Source: Rhodospirillales bacterium
GTDB lineage: Bacteria; Pseudomonadota; Alphaproteobacteria; ATCC43930; CGMCC-115725
NCBI GenBank assembly: GCA_028288725.1
Contig: JAQGIC010000079.1
Span: 1-64,000 of the forward strand
Reading direction: 5' to 3'
DNA length: 64,000 nucleotides
Position numbers and translations under genes: made by a program. Shown here one piece after another: positions 17,505-29,093 of the stretch. A model generated the notes under the pieces. The model worked only from the letters and a program-made list of their open reading frames with translations, made no database searches and was not told the DNA's origin. Position 1 is the first letter of the stretch; each line of letters starts with the position of its first letter.

Positions 17505-17748
17505 TTGGTCGCTTCCTTCGATGGGCCGGGGCGCGGTCCCGACATTGATTGGGCCCTAACCTAGCGCCAAAAGCAGCATTCCGCATCCGTCTGCGAATGC
17601 ACACCCGCTTTCTGGCCCGCTTTATGCTTCAATGGAACCGCAGGATGTCGCGCGTCGAACCACCAGATCGGCTGTTCCGAGCGACGCCTGTGGCTGATAG
17701 CTTTGGGGACGGCTCCCGTCGAGCCGCCCGGGAATGAACGGACGACCG

Positions 17749-20700
17749 ATGACCATCCATGTCGCCCTCAATCATAAGACCACCTATCAGTATGATCGGC
17801 CCGTGGCGCTCGGGCCCCAGATCGTCCGCCTGCGTCCGGCCCCGCATTGCCGCACGCCGATCCTGTCCTATTCCCTGAAGGTCACGCCGGCCGAGCATTT
17901 CATCAATTGGCAGCAGGACCCGCAATCCAATCATCTGGCGCGCCTCGTGTTCCCGGAAAAGACCCGGATGTTCGAGATCGAGGTCGATCTGGTCGCCGAG
18001 ATGGCGGTCTACAATCCCTTCGATTTCTTTCTGGAGGAAAGCGCGCAGAGCTTTCCCTTCGCCTACGAGCCGGATCTGGCCCGCGAACTGCGCCCCTATC
18101 TGGAGACCGGGGTCGCCGGCCCGCTGCTCTTGAACCTGCTGGACGAGATCCCGCGCGACAAGACGCCGACCATGGATTTCCTGGTCGAGATCAACCGCAT
18201 CATCCAGAACCGGATCGGCTATGTCATCCGCATGGAGCCGGGCATCCAGACCTGCGACGAGACGCTGGACAAGGCGTTGGGCTCGTGTCGCGATTCGGCC
18301 TGGCTGCTGGTCCAGGTGTTCCGCCACCTGGGCATCGCCGCCCGCTTCGCATCGGGTTATCTGATCCAGCTCGCCCCCGACCAGAAATCCTTGGACGGCC
18401 CGTCCGGCACCGAGGTCGATTTCACCGATCTCCATGCCTGGACCGAGGTCTATCTGCCCGGTGCCGGCTGGATCGGGCTCGACCCGACGTCGGGCCTGCT
18501 CGCCGGCGAAGGCCATATTCCGCTCGCCTGCTCGCCCGATCCCAGTTCCGCCGCCCCGATCACGGGTGCCGTCGAGAAGGCCGAGGTCACGTTCGGCTTC
18601 GAGATGTCGGTGAAGCGCATCCTGGAGACGCCGCGCGTCACCAAGCCCTATACCGACGAGCAATGGCGCGCCATCGACGCGCTGGGCGAGGCGATCGACC
18701 TCGATCTTCAGACCAGCGACGTGCGGCTGACCATGGGCGGCGAGCCGACCTTCGTGTCGATCGACGACATGGACGGCGCCGAATGGACGGTGGCGGCCCT
18801 CGGCCCCAACAAGCGCAAGCTGGCCGGCAACCTCGCCCGCCGCCTGAAGCAGCGTTTCGCACCCGGCGCCGTGCTGCATTTCGGCCAAGGCAAATGGTAC
18901 CCGGGCGAGCCGCTGCCGCGCTGGGCGCTCAACATCATCTGGCGCAAGGACGGCGTGCCGATCTGGCGCGACGACAAGCTGATCGGCGACGATTCGGTCC
19001 CGGGCAAGGTCGATCCCGACATGGCCCGGCGTTTCATCGAGGCGCTCGCCGACCGGCTCGACGTCGCACCCGAGTTTGCGATCCCGGCCCATGAAGACGC
19101 CTGGGCCTATCTGTCCCAGGAGCGCCGCCTGCCGATCAATGTCGATCCGATCGACAACAAGGTGCCCGAGAAGCAGCAGCGCGAGCGGATCGCCAAGGTG
19201 TTCGAGCAGGGATTGGACAAGGTCGCGGGCTATGTCCTGCCGCTGGAACGGCGCAAGCGCCCGGGCGGCGCGCTGCAATGGGCGTCGGGCCCCTGGTTCC
19301 TGCGCCACAACCATCTGTTCCTGCTGCCCGGCGACAGTCCGGTCGGCCTGCGCCTGCCGCTGGACAGCCTGCCCTGGGTCAAGCCCGAGGATGCCGAGCC
19401 GATCATCGAGCCGGATCCGTTCGAGGGTCGCCCGCCCCTGCCGCCGCAAGTCCGTCGCGCGGCCCCGGCCGTGCGCAACGCGCCGTCCGAGCAGGCGGTC
19501 ATGGCACCCAAGCCGGGCCAGTCGGCACCCGGCATCGTGCGCACCGCGCTGGTGGTCGAGGTCCGCGACGGCAAGCTCCATGTCTTCATGCCGCCGGTCG
19601 AGCGGGTCGAGGATTCGCTGGTTTTGATCGCCGCTATCGAAGAGACCGCGGCCGAGCTGGACGTGCCGATTTTCCTCGAAGGCTACGGCCCGCCGCGCGA
19701 CCCGCGCCTCGGCCACCTGAGCGTCACCCCGGACCCGGGCGTGATCGAGGTCAATATCCATCCGGCGTCGAGCTGGCGCGAACTGGTCGACAACACGACG
19801 ATCCTCTACGAGGAGGCGCGCCAATCGCGGCTCACCACCGAGAAATTCATGATCGACGGCCGCCATGTCGGCACGGGCGGCGGCAATCACATCGTGCTGG
19901 GCGGCGCCACCCCGGCCGATTCGCCGCTGCTGCGCCGGCCCGACGTGCTGAAAAGCCTGATCGCCTATTGGAACAACCACCCGTCGCTCTCGCGCCTGTT
20001 CTCCGGCCTGTTCATCGGGCCGACCAGCCAGTCGCCCCGCGTCGACGAGGCGCGCGACGATGCGCTCTACGAACTCAGCCTCGCGTTCGAGCAGATCCCG
20101 ACCGGCGGCGATTGTCCGCCCTGGCTGATCGACCGGGTGCTGCGCCATCTGCTGGTCGATCTGACCGGCAATACGCACCGCGCCGAATTCTGCATCGACA
20201 AGCTCTACAGCCCCGACAGCGCCACCGGCCGGCTGGGCCTGCTGGAGCTGCGCGCGTTCGAGATGCCGCCGCATGCCCAGATGAGCCTGGTGCAGCAACT
20301 GCTGCTGCGCGCCTTTATCGCGCGATTCTGGCATCAGCCCTACGAGGCGCCGCTGATCCGCTGGGGCGGCGCCATCATGGACAGATGGCTGCTGCCGCAT
20401 TTCGTGGCGGCCGACATCAGGGAAGTGGTCGAGGACCTGGCCCGCACCGGCTATCCGCTGGCGCCGGAATGGTTCGCGCCGCATGTGGAATTCCGCTTTC
20501 CCCATTATGGCCAGATCCAAGCCAACGGCATGACGCTCGACGTGCGCCAGGCGCTGGAACCCTGGCACGTGCTGGGCGAGGAAAGCGGGCCCGGCGGCAC
20601 CGTGCGCTATGTCGATGCGACGGTCGAGCGGCTGGAGATCAAGGTCAAGGGCATGAGCGGCGAGCGCTATGCGGTCGCCTGCAACGGCCGGCGCCTGCCG

Positions 20701-21039
20701 CTGACGCCCACGGGCGCCACCGGCGAATATGTCGCCGCCGTACGCTTCCGCGCCTGGGCCGCCCCCAGCTCGCTGCACCCGACCATCGCCCCCCATGCGC
20801 CGCTGACCATCGATATCGTCGATACCTGGCACAATCAGTCGATCGGCGCCTGCACCTATCACGTCGCCCATCCGGGCGGCCGCAATTATACCACCCTGCC
20901 GGTCAATGCGTATGAAGCCGAGAGCCGTCGGCTCAATCGGTTCTTCGCGATGGGCCATACGCCGGGTACCATCATCCTGCCGCCGCTGGCGGTGAATCCG
21001 TCCTTCCCCCTGACGCTCGATCTGCGCCTGCGCGGGTGA
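17749..21039 (+). CDS. Transglutaminase-like / DUF2126 putative amidoligase
   Basis: This protein of about 1096 aa has two parts. Residues 1 to about 300 form a bacterial transglutaminase N-terminal plus core domain with an apparent triad: Cys180 in GSCRDSAW, His229 in DLHAWTEVY and Asp245 in GLDPTSG. The remainder is DUF2126, classed as a putative amidoligase, with MGGEPTFVS near residue 330 and a conserved block with IEVNIHPASSWREL and GTGGGNHIVLGG. The natural substrate is unknown. Family gene neighbourhoods suggest ATP-dependent peptide bond formation coupled to peptide cleavage or transfer. I chose ATG 17749 by homology of the N-terminus (MTIHVAL). An in-frame ATG at 17734 is the alternative. 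It starts a three-gene operon. Confidence 0.88.
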   Translation: MTIHVALNHKTTYQYDRPVALGPQIVRLRPAPHCRTPILSYSLKVTPAEHFINWQQDPQSNHLARLVFPEKTRMFEIEVDLVAEMAVYNPFDFFLEESAQSFPFAYEPDLARELRPYLETGVAGPLLLNLLDEIPRDKTPTMDFLVEINRIIQNRIGYVIRMEPGIQTCDETLDKALGSCRDSAWLLVQVFRHLGIAARFASGYLIQLAPDQKSLDGPSGTEVDFTDLHAWTEVYLPGAGWIGLDPTSGLLAGEGHIPLACSPDPSSAAPITGAVEKAEVTFGFEMSVKRILETPRVTKPYTDEQWRAIDALGEAIDLDLQTSDVRLTMGGEPTFVSIDDMDGAEWTVAALGPNKRKLAGNLARRLKQRFAPGAVLHFGQGKWYPGEPLPRWALNIIWRKDGVPIWRDDKLIGDDSVPGKVDPDMARRFIEALADRLDVAPEFAIPAHEDAWAYLSQERRLPINVDPIDNKVPEKQQRERIAKVFEQGLDKVAGYVLPLERRKRPGGALQWASGPWFLRHNHLFLLPGDSPVGLRLPLDSLPWVKPEDAEPIIEPDPFEGRPPLPPQVRRAAPAVRNAPSEQAVMAPKPGQSAPGIVRTALVVEVRDGKLHVFMPPVERVEDSLVLIAAIEETAAELDVPIFLEGYGPPRDPRLGHLSVTPDPGVIEVNIHPASSWRELVDNTTILYEEARQSRLTTEKFMIDGRHVGTGGGNHIVLGGATPADSPLLRRPDVLKSLIAYWNNHPSLSRLFSGLFIGPTSQSPRVDEARDDALYELSLAFEQIPTGGDCPPWLIDRVLRHLLVDLTGNTHRAEFCIDKLYSPDSATGRLGLLELRAFEMPPHAQMSLVQQLLLRAFIARFWHQPYEAPLIRWGGAIMDRWLLPHFVAADIREVVEDLARTGYPLAPEWFAPHVEFRFPHYGQIQANGMTLDVRQALEPWHVLGEESGPGGTVRYVDATVERLEIKVKGMSGERYAVACNGRRLPLTPTGATGEYVAAVRFRAWAAPSSLHPTIAPHAPLTIDIVDTWHNQSIGACTYHVAHPGGRNYTTLPVNAYEAESRRLNRFFAMGHTPGTIILPPLAVNPSFPLTLDLRLRG

Positions 21040-21061: not shown

Positions 21062-23539
21062 GTGGCGATCCCAGCCGTGAGCCAGAGTTTCCTGGCCGGA
21101 TACCAGGTTCCGGCCGGTACCTACGACGAGATGTGCGGCCCCGACGGGGCGGTGCGGCCGGCCTGGGCGGCGTTGCTGAAAGCGCCCGACTTCGCCTCGG
21201 CGGCGACGGTCGAGTCGCGCTGGCAGCTCGCGGAACGCATGATCCGCGAGAACGGCGTCACCTATAACGTCTATGGCGATCCGAAGGGCCTGGCGCGGCC
21301 CTGGCCGCTCGACCCCCTGCCAGCGATCGTCCCCGCGTCCGAATGGCGGCAGATCGAAACGGGCCTGGCCCAGCGCACGCGTCTGCTCGACCGGCTGCTG
21401 GCCGATCTCTATGGGCCGCAGACCGTGCTGAAGGACGGCACGCTGCCGCCGGCCCTGCTGTTCGCGAATCCCGGCTTCCTCAGGCCCTGCCACGGCATCC
21501 AGCCGCCGGATGGGGTCCAGCTGCATCTGGCCGCCTTCGATCTGGGTCGCATGCCCGACGGCGGCTGGGTCGTGCTCGACGACCGGACCCAGGCGCCGTC
21601 CGGCGCCGGCTATGCGCTGGAAAATCGCATGGTGCTGTCGCGCAGCCTGCCGGATGCGTTCCGCGCCCAGCCCGTCGAGCGGGTGTCGGGCTTCTTCCGG
21701 GCGCTCCGCGAAACGCTATCGCGTGCCGCCTCGGCCGCCGCCGCCCGGTCGCGCGGGTCCGGCGCCGAACCCCGGATCGTGCTGCTGACGCCCGGGCCCT
21801 ACAACGAAACCTATTTCGAGCATGCCTATCTCGCGCGCTATCTGGGCTATCAGCTGGTCGCCGGCGAAGACCTGACCGTGCGCTACGACCGGGTCTATCT
21901 GAAGACGCTGGGCGGGCTGCAGCCGGTCGACGGCATCTTGCGTCGGCTGGACGAGGATTTCTGCGATCCCCTGTGGCTGAAGAGCAATTCGAGCCTGGGC
22001 GTCGCCGGACTGGTCGCCGCCGCCCGGCGCGGCCATGTCGCCATTCTGAACCCGCTGGGCAGCGGCGCCGTCGAGGGCGCCGGGCTCATCCCCTATCTGC
22101 CGGCGCTGGCGCGCAAGCTGCTGGGCGAGACCCTGCTGCTGCCCCAGGCCGAGACGCGCTGGCTGGGCACGCCCGGTGCGCTGGACACGCTCGACGCCGA
22201 CCTCGCCGACCGGGTGGTGAAACCGGCCTTCTCCGGAATGGACGCCTCGCCGGTCTATCCGGAACATCTGGACGTGGGCCGCCGGGCCGAATTGATCGCC
22301 CGGATCAAGGCGGCGCCTCAGCGCTGGGCGCTGCAGGACCATCTGCCGCTGTCGAGCGTGCCGGCCTGGGTCGACGGCAGGGCGGTGCCGCGCGGGCTGT
22401 TGCTGCGGGCCTATGTCACCGCCGACCAGGACGGCGGTCACAAGGTCATGCCCGGCGGTCTCGCCCGGGTGGCGCCCGAGGTCGGGCGGCTGATGGTCTC
22501 GCTGCAATCGGGCGGCGGCAGCAAGGATGTCTGGATCGTCGGCGACCGGCCGAGCGAGCATGTCAGCCTGTGGCAGTCGCAGCCCGACGCGGTCGAGCTG
22601 AAGCGCCATGCCGCCGATCTGCCGAGCCGGGTCGCCGACAATCTGTTCTGGCTCGGCCGCTATGCCGAGCGGACCGAGATCACCATCCGTCTGGTCCGGG
22701 CCGCGCGTCAGCGCGGGCTGCCCGACCTCAACAACCCCGGCGGCCCCGCCGTGGCGCCCTTGCGCGAATGCCTTGCCGGCCTGGGCTTCGTCCTGGCCGA
22801 GGGGCCGCCACAGCCGGCCGCGATCATGGCGGGCCTGAGCCAGCCGATCGAGGCGCTGCACCGCGCGGCGACGACCGTGCGCGACCGCCTGTCGATGGAC
22901 ACCTGGCGGGTGCTGAATGCGCTGCCGGCACTGGCCGATCTCGATCAACTGCTGCAGCGCCTGGCCGCCTTCAACGGTCTGGTCATGGAGAACATGACGC
23001 GGGGGCTAGGCTGGCGTTTCCTGGAGATCGGGCGGCGGCTGGAGCGGGCCTACCAGACGCTTGCCTTCGCCCGCGTGCTGGGCCAGGCGGTCGGCCCGAC
23101 CGAACCGGCGCTGCTCGATGCGCTGCTCGAGGTCGCCGACAGTTCGATGACCTATCGCGCGCGCTATTTCATGGGGCTGAAGCCGGCCGCCGTGCTGGAT
23201 CTGGTCCTGGCCGACGAGGCCAACCCCCGCGCGGTCGCATTCCAGCTTTTGGCGATCGGCCAGCATCTGGCCGCCTTGCCGCGCGAGCGCCACGGCACGT
23301 CGACGACGCCCGAGGCCCAGGCGACGGCGGCGGTCATGGCGGCGCTGCGCCGCGCCGACATGGTCAAGATCGCCCGCGGCGGACCGGAGGAAAAGGACGG
23401 CCGGCCGAAGCTCGACCGGCTGTGCATCGCCCTGACCAGCGATCTGGCCGAAATCTCGGACCTGCTGAGCGAGGCCTATTTCAAGCATGCCGCGGCCGAG
23501 CCTTTGGCCACGGCCGCCTCGCATCCGGCGCGGGCCTGA
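21062..23539 (+). CDS. Circularly permuted ATP-grasp fused to alpha-E domain
   Basis: This 825-aa protein joins two modules often encoded separately. Residues about 10-490 are the circularly permuted ATP-grasp ligase (former DUF404/DUF407), with GTYDEMCGPDG at the start, LTPGPYNETYFEHAYLARYL, and LKSNSSLGVAGL centrally. Residues about 515-800 form the helical alpha-E domain (DUF403) with its ER motif in NLFWLGRYAERTEI. The ATP-grasp probably forms an amide bond between unknown partners, and alpha-E proteins accompany it across bacteria. The start is uncertain: GTG at 21062 or GTG at 21077, neither with a well-spaced ribosome site. It begins 22 nt after the DUF2126 gene and ends 5 nt before the next. 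Confidence 0.88.
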   Translation: MAIPAVSQSFLAGYQVPAGTYDEMCGPDGAVRPAWAALLKAPDFASAATVESRWQLAERMIRENGVTYNVYGDPKGLARPWPLDPLPAIVPASEWRQIETGLAQRTRLLDRLLADLYGPQTVLKDGTLPPALLFANPGFLRPCHGIQPPDGVQLHLAAFDLGRMPDGGWVVLDDRTQAPSGAGYALENRMVLSRSLPDAFRAQPVERVSGFFRALRETLSRAASAAAARSRGSGAEPRIVLLTPGPYNETYFEHAYLARYLGYQLVAGEDLTVRYDRVYLKTLGGLQPVDGILRRLDEDFCDPLWLKSNSSLGVAGLVAAARRGHVAILNPLGSGAVEGAGLIPYLPALARKLLGETLLLPQAETRWLGTPGALDTLDADLADRVVKPAFSGMDASPVYPEHLDVGRRAELIARIKAAPQRWALQDHLPLSSVPAWVDGRAVPRGLLLRAYVTADQDGGHKVMPGGLARVAPEVGRLMVSLQSGGGSKDVWIVGDRPSEHVSLWQSQPDAVELKRHAADLPSRVADNLFWLGRYAERTEITIRLVRAARQRGLPDLNNPGGPAVAPLRECLAGLGFVLAEGPPQPAAIMAGLSQPIEALHRAATTVRDRLSMDTWRVLNALPALADLDQLLQRLAAFNGLVMENMTRGLGWRFLEIGRRLERAYQTLAFARVLGQAVGPTEPALLDALLEVADSSMTYRARYFMGLKPAAVLDLVLADEANPRAVAFQLLAIGQHLAALPRERHGTSTTPEAQATAAVMAALRRADMVKIARGGPEEKDGRPKLDRLCIALTSDLAEISDLLSEAYFKHAAAEPLATAASHPARA

Positions 23540-23544
23540 CCGCC

Positions 23545-24423
23545 ATGCTCTATTCCGTCCGCCACCGCACGACCTACCGCTATGACGAGCCGGTCTCGCT
23601 GTCGCATCACGCCGCCCATCTGCGGCCGCTCGACCGGCATCAGCAGAGCTGCCGGTCGCATCAATTGGTGATCGAGCCGCTGCCGACCAGCATCGAGCAG
23701 ACCACGGATTATTTCGGCAATGGCGTCATGGTGTTCACCATCGCCGGGCTGCATCAATCGCTGATCGTTATATCGACCAGCGAGGTCGAGATGCGGCCGA
23801 TGACGCTCGATCCGTCCGTGGGGCAGGCACCGTGGGAGCGGATCGCCGCGGTTGCCGCCACCCCCCGCGATCCCGCGGATCTGGTCGCCGCCGAATTCGC
23901 CGTCGCCTCGCCCGCGGCCGACGTCACGCCGGTGATCCAGCGCTATGCCGCCCCGTCGTTTCCGGCGGGCCGCCCGCTGATCGAAGCGGCGCTCGACCTG
24001 GCCCATCGCATCCATGGCGAATTCAAGTTCGATCCGACCGCGACGACGATCTCGACCCCGACCGAAGAGGTGCTGCGGCTGAAGCGCGGCGTGTGCCAGG
24101 ACTTCGCCCATCTGATGATCGCCGGCTGCAGGGCGCATGGCGTGCCCGCGCGTTATGTGAGCGGCTATCTGGAGACCGACCCGCCCGCCGGCGGCAAGCG
24201 CCTGGTCGGCGCCGACGCATCCCATGCCTGGGTCGCGGTCTATGCCGGCGACGGGATCTGGCTGGAGATCGACCCGACCAACGACCGGCTGGCCGGCACC
24301 AGCCACGTTGCCGTGGCCCAGGGCCGCGACTACGGCGATGTCAGCCCCCTACGCGGCGTCATCCTGGGCGGCGGCGACCATGTGGTCGAGGTCGCCGTCG
24401 ATGTCGAACGGATGCTGATCTAA
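23545..24423 (+). CDS. Transglutaminase-like cysteine peptidase
   Basis: This 292-aa protein has the same architecture as the start of the DUF2126 protein: an N-terminal beta domain (YSVRHRTTYRYDEPVSLSHH) then a transglutaminase core. The triad appears intact: Cys184 in RGVCQDFAHL, His227 in SHAWVAVY and Asp243 in EIDPTND. No signal peptide is seen, so it is probably cytoplasmic. It is the last gene of the operon, 5 nt after the ATP-grasp/alpha-E gene. A second transglutaminase in the same unit suggests that peptide cleavage or transfer is integral to the pathway. It converges on the S10 peptidase gene 60 nt away. Confidence 0.9.
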   Translation: MLYSVRHRTTYRYDEPVSLSHHAAHLRPLDRHQQSCRSHQLVIEPLPTSIEQTTDYFGNGVMVFTIAGLHQSLIVISTSEVEMRPMTLDPSVGQAPWERIAAVAATPRDPADLVAAEFAVASPAADVTPVIQRYAAPSFPAGRPLIEAALDLAHRIHGEFKFDPTATTISTPTEEVLRLKRGVCQDFAHLMIAGCRAHGVPARYVSGYLETDPPAGGKRLVGADASHAWVAVYAGDGIWLEIDPTNDRLAGTSHVAVAQGRDYGDVSPLRGVILGGGDHVVEVAVDVERMLI

Positions 24424-24483: not shown

Positions 24484-25974
24484 TCACTTCGGCGCCGGAT
24501 AGAGCGCCTTGGCGTCCCGGGTCAGCGCCTTGCGCGAGTCCGCTCCCAGATACAGCATATGCCCGCCGGGATAGAGCTTGAGCTGGACGCGGGATGTGTC
24601 CGGCAGATGATCCAGCAGGTATTTGTCGATACCGTAGGCGGTCAGCAGATCGGTATAGCCATGGGCGACCATCAGCCTCAGGGACGGATCGAGCGCCAGC
24701 AATTGGCGCAGGTCCTGGATGCCGCCCGCCTGAGCCGGCCCTTCGCTGTGCCAATCCCATTTCTCGTTCACGTCATTGGCCAGCAGCCGATAGTCGAGAT
24801 CGGTCTTGAAGCCCAACTGGTCATGCGCATAGCCGGCGAAGGCATTGGCGAAGCTGCGGGTGAAGCCGTCCAGCACCGGGTCATCCTGCCGCGCCCGCTC
24901 GCTGTCGGGAAACGGATCGGGCATCGCCAGCGTCGCGTCGTACAGGCTGACGATATCGCCGTCGCTTTGCCGGAAGTGCTTGGCCATGGCCTCGATCGGG
25001 ACGATGCCGCGATATTGCGCCACGAGCGGTTCCGGCAGGCCGATCAGATCGGCGACCTTGCCATAGAAGGCATCGCCTGCCGCACCGCTCGGCGGCTTGG
25101 CCGCGAGCGTCGTCAGATAGTCGCCCAGCGCGAATTGCTCGATCGCCGGCAGCTTGTCCGGCGAGAAGCTGCCCTTGCGCGCCAGTTCGGCCGCCGCGAA
25201 GGACGGCAGCCGCAGGGCCGCCACCAGCGGATTGCGCTCGGTGCCGAACAGCATGTTCGCCTCGATCAGCGGCGAGATCATGGTAATGCCCTGCAGCACG
25301 ACGCCCTGGTCGCGCTGCAGGGCGCGGGCGACCTTGGCCGCGCGCAACCCGCCATAGCTCTCGCCCAGCAGATATTTCGGCGAAGCGGTTCGTCCGTTGC
25401 GGATCAGATAGAGCCCGACCAGTTTCGCCAGATAGTCGGCGTCCTGGCGCACGCCCCAGAATTGCTTGGGCGCCTGATCCGGCTTGGCGGCGACACTATA
25501 GCCGGTGCCGATCGGATCGATGAACACCAGGTCGGTGAAATCGAGCCAGGTCTCGGCATTCTCGACCAGGCTCGCGCGGGCGCCATCGAAACCGCCGCCG
25601 AAATCCAGCCGATAGGGTCCGGCCAATCCGAGTTGCAGGTAGGCGGAGCCGGCGCCCGGCCCGCCGTTGAAGACGAAGGTGATCGGCCGGTCCGCCGGCT
25701 TGGCGCCGTTCAGCGTATAGGCGGTGTAATAGACCGATGCCGTCTGCTCGCCCTTGTCGTCGCGCAGCGGCAGGGTCCCGGCCGTAGCCGCGTAGGCGAG
25801 CTTGCGGCCGGCGACGTCGATCGTGTGCTGCGTCACCGAGTCGGCCGGCAGCATGGCCAGCAGGCTCGGGAGATGGTCGGGTCTGGCGGGCGGATCCTCG
25901 GCCCGGGCGACCGGCCCCGCCAACAGCAGGAACCCCAAGGCACAACAGGACGTTAGGCGGAAAATGGCGATCAT
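24484..25974 (-). CDS. Exported S10-family serine carboxypeptidase
   Basis: This 496-aa enzyme removes C-terminal amino acids from peptides, probably in the periplasm or outside the cell. A signal peptide covers residues 1 to about 25 (ending PVARA). The oxyanion motif NGGPGAGS is followed by the nucleophile Ser206 in GESYGG, Asp442 in HGYTDLL and His472 in PGGHMLYLG, so the catalytic triad is complete. The ATG at 25974 gives a proper signal peptide. The frame remains open upstream, but only as a shadow of the divergent epimerase gene. It lies between a peptide-ligase operon and an epimerase-like gene, which suggests but does not prove a shared peptide substrate. Confidence 0.9.
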   Translation of the reverse strand: MIAIFRLTSCCALGFLLLAGPVARAEDPPARPDHLPSLLAMLPADSVTQHTIDVAGRKLAYAATAGTLPLRDDKGEQTASVYYTAYTLNGAKPADRPITFVFNGGPGAGSAYLQLGLAGPYRLDFGGGFDGARASLVENAETWLDFTDLVFIDPIGTGYSVAAKPDQAPKQFWGVRQDADYLAKLVGLYLIRNGRTASPKYLLGESYGGLRAAKVARALQRDQGVVLQGITMISPLIEANMLFGTERNPLVAALRLPSFAAAELARKGSFSPDKLPAIEQFALGDYLTTLAAKPPSGAAGDAFYGKVADLIGLPEPLVAQYRGIVPIEAMAKHFRQSDGDIVSLYDATLAMPDPFPDSERARQDDPVLDGFTRSFANAFAGYAHDQLGFKTDLDYRLLANDVNEKWDWHSEGPAQAGGIQDLRQLLALDPSLRLMVAHGYTDLLTAYGIDKYLLDHLPDTSRVQLKLYPGGHMLYLGADSRKALTRDAKALYPAPK

Positions 25975-26091: not shown

Positions 26092-27096
26092 ATGCTGCCC
26101 CGCGCTCTGATCCCTCCCGACCGGCCGAAGATCACGGTCCGGTCGGAGCAATTCCCGCTGGAACGTGCCGCCGACGGCACCCGCGGCCGTGCCGAGATCG
26201 TCCTGGTCGAGATCCACGAGGGCAGCAAGCGCGGGCGCGGCGAATGCGTCCCCGATCCGGCTCGGGGCGAAACGGCCGACGCGATCGTGGCGCTGATCGA
26301 GGCGGTGGCCAACGATATCTCGACCGGCATCATCACCCGGCGCAGCCTGCAGCGCATGATGCCGGCGGGCGCCGCGCGCAACGCGATCGATCTGGCGCTG
26401 TGGGACTTCGATGCCAAGCGGACCGGCTCGTCCGCCTGGCAGATCGCGGGGCTGGACGTGCCCCATCGGGTGACGACATCCTTCGCCATTCCGCCCGGCA
26501 GCGCCGAAGCCATGGGAGCGGCCGCGGCCGAGCAGGCCCATCGCCCCCTGCTGAAGCTGACCCTGGAATCGGTTCACGCGTTCGATCGGCTGCTCGCGGT
26601 CAAGGCCGCGGCACCCCGGGCCCGGCTGATCGTCGATGCGTGCGAAGGCTGGACGCTGGAAAGCCTGACCAAGGCGTTGCCGACCCTGGCCGAAGCCGGG
26701 GTCGAACTGATCGAGGATCCGCTGCCGGTCGGCGAGGACAGGGCGCTGCGCGGCTTCAGGCACGTGATCCCGATCTGCGCCAACCGCACGTGCACCGACC
26801 GGTCGAGCCTGCCCGAGTTGGCCGGCCTCTACGACGCGATCAATGTCGAACTGGATCGAACCGGCGGCCTGACCGAGGCGCTGGCGCTGATCGAGCAGGC
26901 GCGCGACGAGGGCTTCCGCATCAAGCTCGGCTGCCGGCTCGGCACCTCGCTCGCGGTCGCCCCCGCCGTCATCGCGGGCCAAGATGCCGACTGGATCGAC
27001 CTGGACGCCCCGCTGCTGCTCGGCCGCGACCGCCAGCCCGGCCTGCGTTTCGACGGCAGCCTGCTCTATCCGCCGAGCGTGTCACTCTGGGGCTAG
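26092..27096 (+). CDS. DgcA/dipeptide-epimerase-like enolase-superfamily protein, altered active site
   Basis: This full-length 334-aa protein matches alphaproteobacterial N-acetyl-D-Glu racemase/dipeptide epimerase (DgcA) proteins throughout: GRGECVP near the N-terminus, AGAARNAIDLALWD, and a C-terminal capping segment. Metal ligands Asp182 (VDACEGW) and Glu208 (IEDPLP) are kept. Several canonical residues differ. The KxK pair is K155-L-T157. The ADES-type motif with the third metal ligand reads ANRT (Asn231, Arg232). The KLDK motif reads ELDR, with Glu253 in place of Lys. The second catalytic base is therefore probably lost. It may be inactive, have a different reaction, or be a binding protein. 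It is divergent from the S10 gene by 117 bp. Confidence 0.82.
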   Translation: MLPRALIPPDRPKITVRSEQFPLERAADGTRGRAEIVLVEIHEGSKRGRGECVPDPARGETADAIVALIEAVANDISTGIITRRSLQRMMPAGAARNAIDLALWDFDAKRTGSSAWQIAGLDVPHRVTTSFAIPPGSAEAMGAAAAEQAHRPLLKLTLESVHAFDRLLAVKAAAPRARLIVDACEGWTLESLTKALPTLAEAGVELIEDPLPVGEDRALRGFRHVIPICANRTCTDRSSLPELAGLYDAINVELDRTGGLTEALALIEQARDEGFRIKLGCRLGTSLAVAPAVIAGQDADWIDLDAPLLLGRDRQPGLRFDGSLLYPPSVSLWG

Positions 27097-27223: not shown

Positions 27224-27568
27224 GTGCGCCCATCCAAATTCGTCCTGATGTCTCTCGTCGTCGGCTTTATCCTGCCGGCCGCCGGTTGCGTGGTCGAGAC
27301 GCGCCCCGTGCACCCGGCGGCGACCGTCGTCGTGGCCCAGCCGCCTCCGCCGCCGCCGCGTGCCGCCGAATATGTTCCCCCGCCGCCGGCCGGTCAGCCG
27401 AACGTGGTCTATGTCTGGCAGCCGGGCCATTGGCGCTGGAACGGCCATGAATATGTCTGGTTCCCGGGCCAATATGCCGAGCGTCCGGCCCATGTCGAAC
27501 GCTGGATACCGCCCCATTGGGACGAGCGCGGCGGACAGTGGTTCTTCGTCGAAGGCCATTGGGCTTGA
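27224..27568 (+). CDS. Small lipoprotein with YXWGXW-like aromatic repeats
   Basis: This 114-aa protein starts at a GTG with AGAGGA 6 nt upstream, a clear ribosome site that decides the start. The N-terminus is a lipoprotein signal with lipobox LPAAGC (Cys at about residue 22). A Pro-rich linker (PPPPPPRAAEYVPPPPA) follows, then two aromatic repeats, VWQPGHWRWNGHEYVWFPG and the later ERWIPPHWDERGGQWFFVEG. Such WxxGHW/YXWGXW repeat lipoproteins are common in proteobacteria and have no known biochemical function. A cell-envelope location is expected. Confidence 0.82.
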   Translation: MRPSKFVLMSLVVGFILPAAGCVVETRPVHPAATVVVAQPPPPPPRAAEYVPPPPAGQPNVVYVWQPGHWRWNGHEYVWFPGQYAERPAHVERWIPPHWDERGGQWFFVEGHWA

Positions 27569-27578
27569 CAGCTACGCA

Positions 27579-27607
27579 CTTGACCCTGGGGCCGGATGGG
27601 ACCATTT
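27579..27607 (+). promoter_or_regulatory. Possible heat-shock (sigma-32) promoter of hspQ
   Basis: CTTGAC (27579-27584) and CCATTT (27602-27607) are separated by 17 nt, 38 nt upstream of the hspQ ATG. The CTTG -35 element and spacing resemble alphaproteobacterial RpoH promoters, but the -10 match is only partial. Heat-shock control would fit the gene. Confidence 0.35.
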
Positions 27608-27645
27608 CCAGGGCTCCATCCCGTTCCGGAGTCGCGTTGTCCGCT

Positions 27646-27972
27646 ATGGTCCCCACGACCACCAAATTCTCGATCGGCCAGATTCTGCGCCACCGCCACT
27701 TCGCGTTTCGCGGGGTCGTGGTCGATATCGACCCGATCTACAGCAATGGCGAGGCATGGTACGAGCAGATCGCGACGAGCAAGCCGCGCAAGGATCAGCC
27801 CTGGTACCATCTGCTGGCCGAGGACGCGGCCGACGGCCACTACCTGGCCTATGTCTCGGAACAGAACCTGCTGATCGACGAGGCGGCCGAGCCGATCGGG
27901 CATCCGGAACTCGCGGCGCGCTTCGGTCCGCTGGTGGATGGCGTCTATCAGACGAAGCAGCCCCTGAATTAA
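27646..27972 (+). CDS. hspQ: Heat shock protein HspQ (YccV family)
   Basis: This 108-aa cytoplasmic protein matches HspQ/YccV. In E. coli the protein binds hemimethylated DNA and acts as a specificity enhancer of Lon protease. The family core is complete: KFSIGQILRHRHFAFRGVV, then PRKDQPWYHLLAE and YVAYVSEQNLL-like YLAYVSEQNLL. The ATG at 27646 begins the conserved region 5 residues before KFSIG. The open frame extends further upstream without support. The stop overlaps a hairpin shared with the convergent GNAT gene. Confidence 0.93.
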   Translation: MVPTTTKFSIGQILRHRHFAFRGVVVDIDPIYSNGEAWYEQIATSKPRKDQPWYHLLAEDAADGHYLAYVSEQNLLIDEAAEPIGHPELAARFGPLVDGVYQTKQPLN

Positions 27973-27989
27973 GCGGCTTACTAGCCGCT
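27972..27989. terminator. Convergent hairpin between hspQ and the GNAT gene
   Basis: AGCGGCT and AGCCGCT form a perfect 7-bp stem with a TACT loop. The hairpin touches the stop codons of both convergent genes. On the plus strand the sequence AGGGCTCTTTC follows, only a weak T-run. It probably marks a bidirectional transcription end. Confidence 0.4.
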
Positions 27990-28449
27990 AGGGCTCTTTC
28001 GCCGGCTCCAGGATTTTGTGGAGCGTGAACAGCGACTGGCCGCCGACGTAATCGTCGAGCACGCCGATCTCGACATAATCGAGCTTGCGATAGAATCCCG
28101 CGGCGGGCTCGCCCAGCGCCGTCAGCCAGATGCTGCGGCAGCCGCGATGGCGGGCTTCCTCCTCGACCATCCGCATCAATTCCCGGCCGAGGCCGGCGCC
28201 GCGCCGCGCCTCGACGATCCACAGCGTCTTGATGAACAGGCGGCGCCACATGATATGGCCGTCGGCACCGCCCTCGATATGGCCGGCAACGTCGCGGGCG
28301 AATACGGCGAAATGCGCATGCTCGGGCGCGCCCAGGCGGGCCTCTTCGAAGGCGAACAGCCCGCGCTCCAGGACCGCGACGTCGGCCGGGTTCGGATTGG
28401 GCTCGACTCCGATCAGCACGGTGTTCTGGTCGGGTCGGATCATGGCCAT
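27988..28449 (-). CDS. GNAT-family N-acetyltransferase
   Basis: This 153-aa protein has the GNAT acetyl-CoA-binding motif A, V-E-x-RRGAGLGRELM (residues about 84-98), preceded by the strand RLFIKTLWI, and ends with the FYRKLDYVEIGVLDDY segment typical of the fold. The substrate is unknown. A second ATG two codons inside (28443) is an alternative start. It is convergent with hspQ and lies 17 nt after flbT on the same strand. No PseH-type role is evident despite the nearby pseBC genes, because the key sequence resembles generic small-molecule GNATs. Confidence 0.8.
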   Translation of the reverse strand: MAMIRPDQNTVLIGVEPNPNPADVAVLERGLFAFEEARLGAPEHAHFAVFARDVAGHIEGGADGHIMWRRLFIKTLWIVEARRGAGLGRELMRMVEEEARHRGCRSIWLTALGEPAAGFYRKLDYVEIGVLDDYVGGQSLFTLHKILEPAKEP

Positions 28450-28465: not shown

Positions 28466-28981
28466 TCAATTTTCGTCGATGGCCGAAATGCGCCGTTCCA
28501 GTTCGGCGATCTTGCCCTTGATCCGGCCGATTTCCTTGTGGCGGTCGATGCGCGGCGGCTTCGGCTCGATATAGCTTTCGCCCGGATGGGCCGGCGGCTC
28601 GGTCGACTCGCCCGCTTCGAGCGCGATCAGCCGGCGCGACGCGCGCAGCGCGTTATACAGCTTGTCGTCGGCGATCAGTTCGCGCAGATGCGCCACGATC
28701 GGCGCGGAGACCGGCCAGGCGATCACGAACCGGTCCATCAGCGCGTCGCCGATCGTCTCCCATTCGCCGCGATTGGCGTCGAACAGGTAGGCGTTCTGGA
28801 TCGCGTGATAGATCTCCTTGGCCGGCGTATTGGCCTCGGGCTGGGTCAGCACATCCTTGTCGCGCAGGATGTTCGCCTTGTTATGGACGGTGAGCGAGAT
28901 ATTCGCCGAGCCGCTGTTCTCGATCACGGCGCCGTTGATGATGATCTTGGCGCCCGCCGGCAGCGGGATGGAGAGGGGCAT
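28466..28981 (-). CDS. flbT: Flagellar regulator FlbT
   Basis: This 171-aa protein matches FlbT, the alphaproteobacterial post-transcriptional regulator that binds flagellin mRNA (studied in Caulobacter). The diagnostic N-terminus MPLSIPLPAGAKIIINGAVI and the NILRDKDVLTQPEANTPAKEIY block are clear. The C-terminus is a charged helix (RIKGKIAELERRISAI). The ATG at 28981 is preceded by GAGG with 6-nt spacing. A longer frame upstream is unsupported. It is transcribed divergently from flgE across 250 bp. Its usual partner flaF lies 7 kb away, which is unusual. Confidence 0.88.
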   Translation of the reverse strand: MPLSIPLPAGAKIIINGAVIENSGSANISLTVHNKANILRDKDVLTQPEANTPAKEIYHAIQNAYLFDANRGEWETIGDALMDRFVIAWPVSAPIVAHLRELIADDKLYNALRASRRLIALEAGESTEPPAHPGESYIEPKPPRIDRHKEIGRIKGKIAELERRISAIDEN

Positions 28982-29093
28982 TGCAATCCTCGAAAACGCA
29001 GGTCGTGGTGAAGGCGGCGGCAATTTTAGACGATTGTACCTGATCTCCGGCCAGATGCGAGCCGGCAAGAACCGCCGCCCAAACTAAGCCTTA

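Follow-up and report, generated by a model that had tools for sequence, protein, structure and literature searches.

A DgcA-type gene near a transglutaminase operon

The window, a 64,000-nucleotide stretch of DNA from a Rhodospirillales bacterium, carries on its plus strand, at 26092..27096, an intact gene for a DgcA/YcjG-type homologue of the enolase superfamily, which we propose to be a disarmed epimerase. Upstream of it lie three plus-strand operon genes encoding a transglutaminase-like protein with a DUF2126 (putative amidoligase) region (17734..21039; 1101 aa), a circularly permuted ATP-grasp plus Alpha-E protein (21062..23539; 825 aa), and a second transglutaminase-like protein (23545..24423; 292 aa). 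These are followed by a convergent, minus-strand Peptidase_S10 gene (24484..25974), whose serine carboxypeptidase-like product has an apparent signal peptide, and the epimerase homologue is divergent from this peptidase gene. The second sampled species of the genus (G001) has an identical gene order, including a neighbour about 75% identical to the S10 protein. On the far side of the epimerase homologue is a plus-strand gene for a YccV-like (HspQ/hemimethylated-DNA-binding) protein (27517-27972), after which come minus-strand genes for a GNAT acetyltransferase (27988-28449) and an FlbT-like protein (28466-29068), the latter at the edge of a group of flagellar genes.

The first-pass annotation of this DNA had described a complete frame with retained fold motifs, and we find an uninterrupted frame of 334 codons whose product matches both MR_MLE_N and MR_MLE_C (Pfam) above cut-off. 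The protein has the capping domain and modified TIM barrel of the enolase superfamily but not the three conserved acidic metal ligands, the third position being occupied by N231. Its best family model is that for DgcA, NF042940, with a score of 371 bits against a curated cut-off of 400; the three clade members scored fall between 371 and 375 (window, 371; G001 orthologue, 375; G014, 374), and three DgcN-linked or related canonical proteins score 490-503. The L-Ala-D/L-Glu epimerase model NF011708 likewise gives a score below its cut-off (267 against 343 bits). The two-base lysine pair that marks both DgcA and L-Ala-D/L-Glu epimerases is missing (T157, E253), and a dgcN gene, a usual although not strict criterion for DgcA, is found neither beside the gene nor in the genome. 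The gene is diverged but related to that of the alphaproteobacterial N-acetyl-D-Glu racemase DgcA, to which it is probably orthologous; the two proteins are alike in length, fold and motif frame, and mean identity to canonical members is roughly 51%. No second intact DgcA was found elsewhere in the window genome, in which the next match to the window protein is 31% identical.

By sequence, the closest solved structures are 4gfi (EFI-502318, Agrobacterium) and E. coli YcjG (1jpd). A model of the window protein generated by AlphaFold2 from a three-sequence alignment has a mean pLDDT of 78 and a pTM of 0.80, with low confidence at residues 1-7 and 306-324, and the same two structures rank at the top of a Foldseek search with this model (E about 1e-34). 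The best structural match is 4gfi (44% identity, TM-score about 0.86); with 1jpd, aligned by structure, the identity is 41%. The fold is predicted to be intact.

Replacement of the catalytic residues

The first-pass annotation had claimed that both acid/base lysines and the third metal ligand of the dipeptide epimerases are changed in this protein, and that two metal ligands remain. Alignment to 1jpd and 4gfi, which shows no gap in any motif from the KxK strand onward to the C-terminus, bears this out in each residue named. In the KxK motif (K155-L156-T157; 26554..26562, here and below on the plus strand) the first lysine is kept and the second is replaced. The metal ligand D182 is retained and is followed by A183 and C184 (26635..26643), so that DANEGW reads DACEGW; the metal ligand E208 is likewise retained, followed by D209 where all homologues outside the genus have Gln (26713..26718). 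N231-R232-T233 (26782..26790) stands for D-E-S, placing Asn at the third metal-ligand position and Arg at the next, and in E253-L-D-R256 (26848..26859), which stands for KLDK, the second acid/base lysine has become Glu. K278 and R282 (26923..26937), where a barrel strand ends, each replace Met. These last three sets of residues are the same in G001. In contrast to the window protein, 4gfi retains KIK, ANEGW, ADES, and KLDK. Since there is no gap in the motif regions, the canonical Lys and Asp residues are not supplied from shifted positions, a possibility that had been named beforehand as telling against a rebuilt site; shifted lysines were ruled out on the same alignments.

Four changes at near-invariant positions go beyond those noted earlier, namely Q209D, M278K, M282R, and R28D. 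The last lies in the N-terminal 'SRG' loop, where codon 28 (26173..26175) specifies Asp in place of the Arg found in 98% of homologues. YkfB holds the Glu side chain with an Arg in its N-terminal loop, and it is this loop Arg that the window protein has replaced. D303 and D305, which we take to be the site of the YkfB Asp pair that binds the amino group of the substrate (Ala) near the barrel end, are kept in all members.

YcjG (1jpd, NF011708) and YkfB (1jpm) share with the window protein the enolase fold and equivalents of D182, E208, and K155, but the acid/base lysines of these enzymes are missing from it. In YkfB, the epimerised carbon lies between lysines K162 and K268, and mutating either one lowers activity (PMC5808125). 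By our reading of the motif order, T157 and E253 would occupy the positions of these two lysines.

The rarity of this residue set was assessed among 155 aligned alphaproteobacterial homologues, taken from sampled genomes of the family and the order and, evenly spread, of the class as a whole. Outside the window genus every homologue keeps at least one of the two lysines as well as the third acidic ligand, and none has N231, R232 or E253; the finding of the same residues elsewhere had also been named as a possible objection. Outside a clade of four members described below, K155, D182, N184, E208, Q209, D231, and E232 are invariant (151 of 151), K253 and K256 are both present in every homologue that covers them (150 of 150), and K157 is present in 149 of 151. 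The other two (L178:1320-2303 in G403 and L199:1302-2315 in G119) are DgcA homologues of another family in which the sole change is Asn for the second KxK lysine. DgcN is not in their flanks and a gene for a LuxR-type response regulator comes after them; they apparently represent an independent KxN variant.

Of 20 pocket positions, 11 depart from the consensus in the window protein. The same positions in 150 other homologues show no change in 122, one in 23, two in one, and three in four, and by this comparison 11 changes is far above what would be expected from the mean identity to canonical members. The protein might nonetheless still act as an N-acyl-amino-acid racemase or dipeptide epimerase by way of non-canonical residues, as its identity to canonical DgcA and its shared predicted fold would allow. 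We consider this improbable: neither lysine remains, mutating just one of the pair is enough to impair YkfB (PMC5808125), the residues are unmatched outside the genus, and the family-model scores fall under the curated cut-offs. To judge from the aligned residues, canonical two-base chemistry is very unlikely in the window protein.

Selection, stepwise change and genomic setting

The window genus (g1) is represented by two sampled genomes, that of the window (G000) and G001, and both carry the fully changed form. The G001 orthologue is 77% identical, and D209, N231, R232, T233, E253, R256, K278, and R282 are all identical in it. The expectation that close homologues would conserve the substituted residues thus held for N231, R232, and E253 but failed for T157, which is Glu in G001; further differences between G001 and the window protein are found at 184 (H/C) and 185 (A/E). 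Among 40 intact pairs of 72-82% identity, zero or one of the 20 pocket positions differs, compared with three in the window/G001 pair, and all three sit on the KxK/DxN side. Such variability at 157, 184, and 185 is as would be expected if the old chemistry were no longer selected. We infer that the KxK/DxN side of the pocket may have been released from its old role, the other side having been rebuilt and fixed.

Between the window gene and its G001 orthologue the dN/dS ratio is 0.20, and third codon positions account for 127 of the 215 nucleotide differences. Other homologue pairs, with intact DgcA, give about 0.05-0.35 and the neighbouring genes 0.17-0.21; a value like that of the intact pairs argues that the protein is kept by selection and is not decaying. 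The frame is open in two species, and neither frame damage nor neutral evolution was found. The earlier suggestion of a new reaction or a non-catalytic role, as opposed to recent decay, agrees with this ratio, with derived residues that are mostly common to the genus, and with the intact predicted fold.

The proteins of the window, G001, and two genomes of a second genus of the same family (g4; G013 and G014) form one clade, with support of 97/93 in a careful tree of 33 rows and 98 (SH-aLRT) in a quick tree of 85 rows. Three residues are replaced in all four members: K157 (T in the window, E in G001, N in both g4 proteins), N184 (C, H, Q, Q), and R28 (D in four of four). The g4 proteins keep D231, E232, K253, and K256 and have SAD in place of the GCM motif; the window genus keeps GC and has changed D231, E232, K253, K256, Q209, M278, and M282. 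The simplest reading of this pattern would be a stepwise loss whose first steps were common to the clade. The same step could also have been taken twice, which the differing replacement letters would allow. The g4 orthologues (L021:1200-2207 and L044:1393-2400, both on the minus strand), which keep ADES and KLDK, read KLN, DAQERW, and SADWCSS where other homologues have KxK, DANEGW, and GCMxGTS. They lie directly downstream of the transglutaminase operon, facing an lpxB-like gene, and their motifs make a changed specificity likely.

The DgcN-less setting of the window gene, its operon link, and the existence of a related genus that has lost part of the residue set are additions to the first-pass annotation. 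A gene for DgcN (DUF1611) is present in nine genomes of the family, each time adjoining a canonical dgcA; no match to dgcN (PF07755) was found in G000 or G001, and the g4 genomes likewise lack it. In two other genomes of the family (G024 and G026) a canonical dgcA occurs without any match to DgcN, the contig of G024 ending at that point. Among the 155 homologues, DgcN is encoded in the flank of 102; outside the clade it is missing from the flanks of 49 others, some of them cut by contig ends, and 47 of these 49 have the full catalytic set. Lack of DgcN alone therefore does not explain the change, and we rejected it as a sufficient cause. Early decay following the loss of DgcN would account for the missing dgcN and for the three pocket positions that differ between the two species. 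It is nevertheless a poor candidate, given the open frames, the dN/dS ratio and third-position bias, the derived residues shared by the two species, and the intact catalytic sets of nearly all homologues with DgcN-less flanks.

Adjacency to the transglutaminase/ATP-grasp/Alpha-E cluster was found in more than one lineage, in g1 (G000, G001) and in g4 (G013, G014). In g4 the second transglutaminase gene is followed directly, on the same strand, by the epimerase homologue; the S10 gene that separates the operon from the homologue in both g1 species is missing. Since this gene intervenes on the opposite strand, co-transcription with the operon is not expected in the window genus, where the link to the operon rests on g4 and shared ancestry. 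Elsewhere in the order, transglutaminase operons are flanked by different genes and lack the epimerase homologue, and transglutaminase adjacency was rejected as a general feature of DgcA since it is confined to the four-member clade. A weakly similar (31%) transglutaminase encoded near a canonical DgcA gene on the opposite strand in another genome (G111, L164) looks unrelated. The association might be accidental and the role of the protein unrelated to the operon, a view compatible with the other readings and in keeping both with the divergent orientation of the window gene relative to the S10 gene and with the operons elsewhere in the order that lack the homologue. We regard such an accident as the less likely case, because the linkage persists across two genera, between which the epimerase homologues are only about 50% identical.

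In gene content, the operon near the homologue corresponds to the Anbu-type transglutaminase/ATP-grasp/Alpha-E operon, a type that the published description consulted (PMC5666114, citing Iyer et al. 2009) proposes to be a peptide-synthesis system; that description names no enolase-superfamily protein, whereas the window has one nearby. The window thus adds an unexpected neighbour to this operon type. No Anbu-like gene was seen beside the window operon; two matches to the proteasome family were found, both on other contigs. A weak match to this family at G000:C126:18330-18890 (L206), on another contig, may represent an Anbu-like protease encoded apart from the transglutaminase operon. A literature search on DUF2126 and Alpha-E found nothing specific.

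Candidate roles for the rebuilt protein

We propose, with a probability of about 0.5, that the protein derives from a racemase that became tied to a predicted peptide-ligase system, was then disarmed, and now would serve as a ligand-binding or scaffold subunit. In a small clade, the partner dgcN is missing and the gene is linked to the transglutaminase/DUF2126 - CP-ATP-grasp/Alpha-E - transglutaminase operon. Clade-wide loss of the second KxK lysine, the DANEGW Asn, and the N-terminal-loop Arg would have altered specificity and removed two-base racemisation. In the window genus, the lysine on the opposite face is replaced as well, as is the third acidic ligand, and new charged residues (D209, R232, E253, R256, K278, and R282) have become fixed in the second half of the barrel. 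The product of these steps would be a carboxylate- or peptide-binding subunit, or a scaffold, that serves the peptide-ligase/peptidase neighbourhood and no longer epimerises. Against a disarmed protein stand the retention of D182, E208, and the first KxK lysine, with Asn as third ligand so that a metal site may persist, and the occurrence of the fully changed form in two genomes only. A literature search for inactive members of the enolase superfamily found nothing specific.

Every member retains D182, E208, and K155, and also D303 and D305, presumably the place of the YkfB Asp pair; these residues lend substance to an alternative that we rate as less probable than a non-catalytic role, though a serious competitor: an enzyme with a new metal-dependent reaction. 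Metal would be held by D182, E208, and N231 (or D209/E253), E253 or K155 would act as general base, and the adjacent ligase system would supply a peptide or amide as substrate. In glucarate dehydratase an Asn is a metal ligand at the third position, which offers a precedent for N231; a literature search on this point gave no confirmation. The identity of D209, N231, R232, E253, R256, and R282 in two species at 77% overall identity also fits a new reaction. A non-catalytic role is favoured by the lack of a conserved lysine at either canonical acid/base position (T or E at 157, E at 253) and by the variation of the DxN and KxK positions within the genus. More tentatively, the protein could be an enolase-superfamily member recruited to a transglutaminase/ATP-grasp/Alpha-E peptide system and rebuilt there, either for a reaction new to the superfamily or as a pseudoenzyme subunit of a peptide ligase.

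Within one bacterial family, DgcA with DgcN, a DgcN-less, operon-linked form short of one lysine, and a form short of both lysines and a metal ligand, still under selection, make up a series along which the passage from an enzyme to another function can be tested step by step. For genes of the window type, annotation as 'N-acetyl-D-Glu racemase' or 'dipeptide epimerase' is probably wrong. Additionally, E232R and K253E reverse the charges on neighbouring strands and could preserve a salt bridge.
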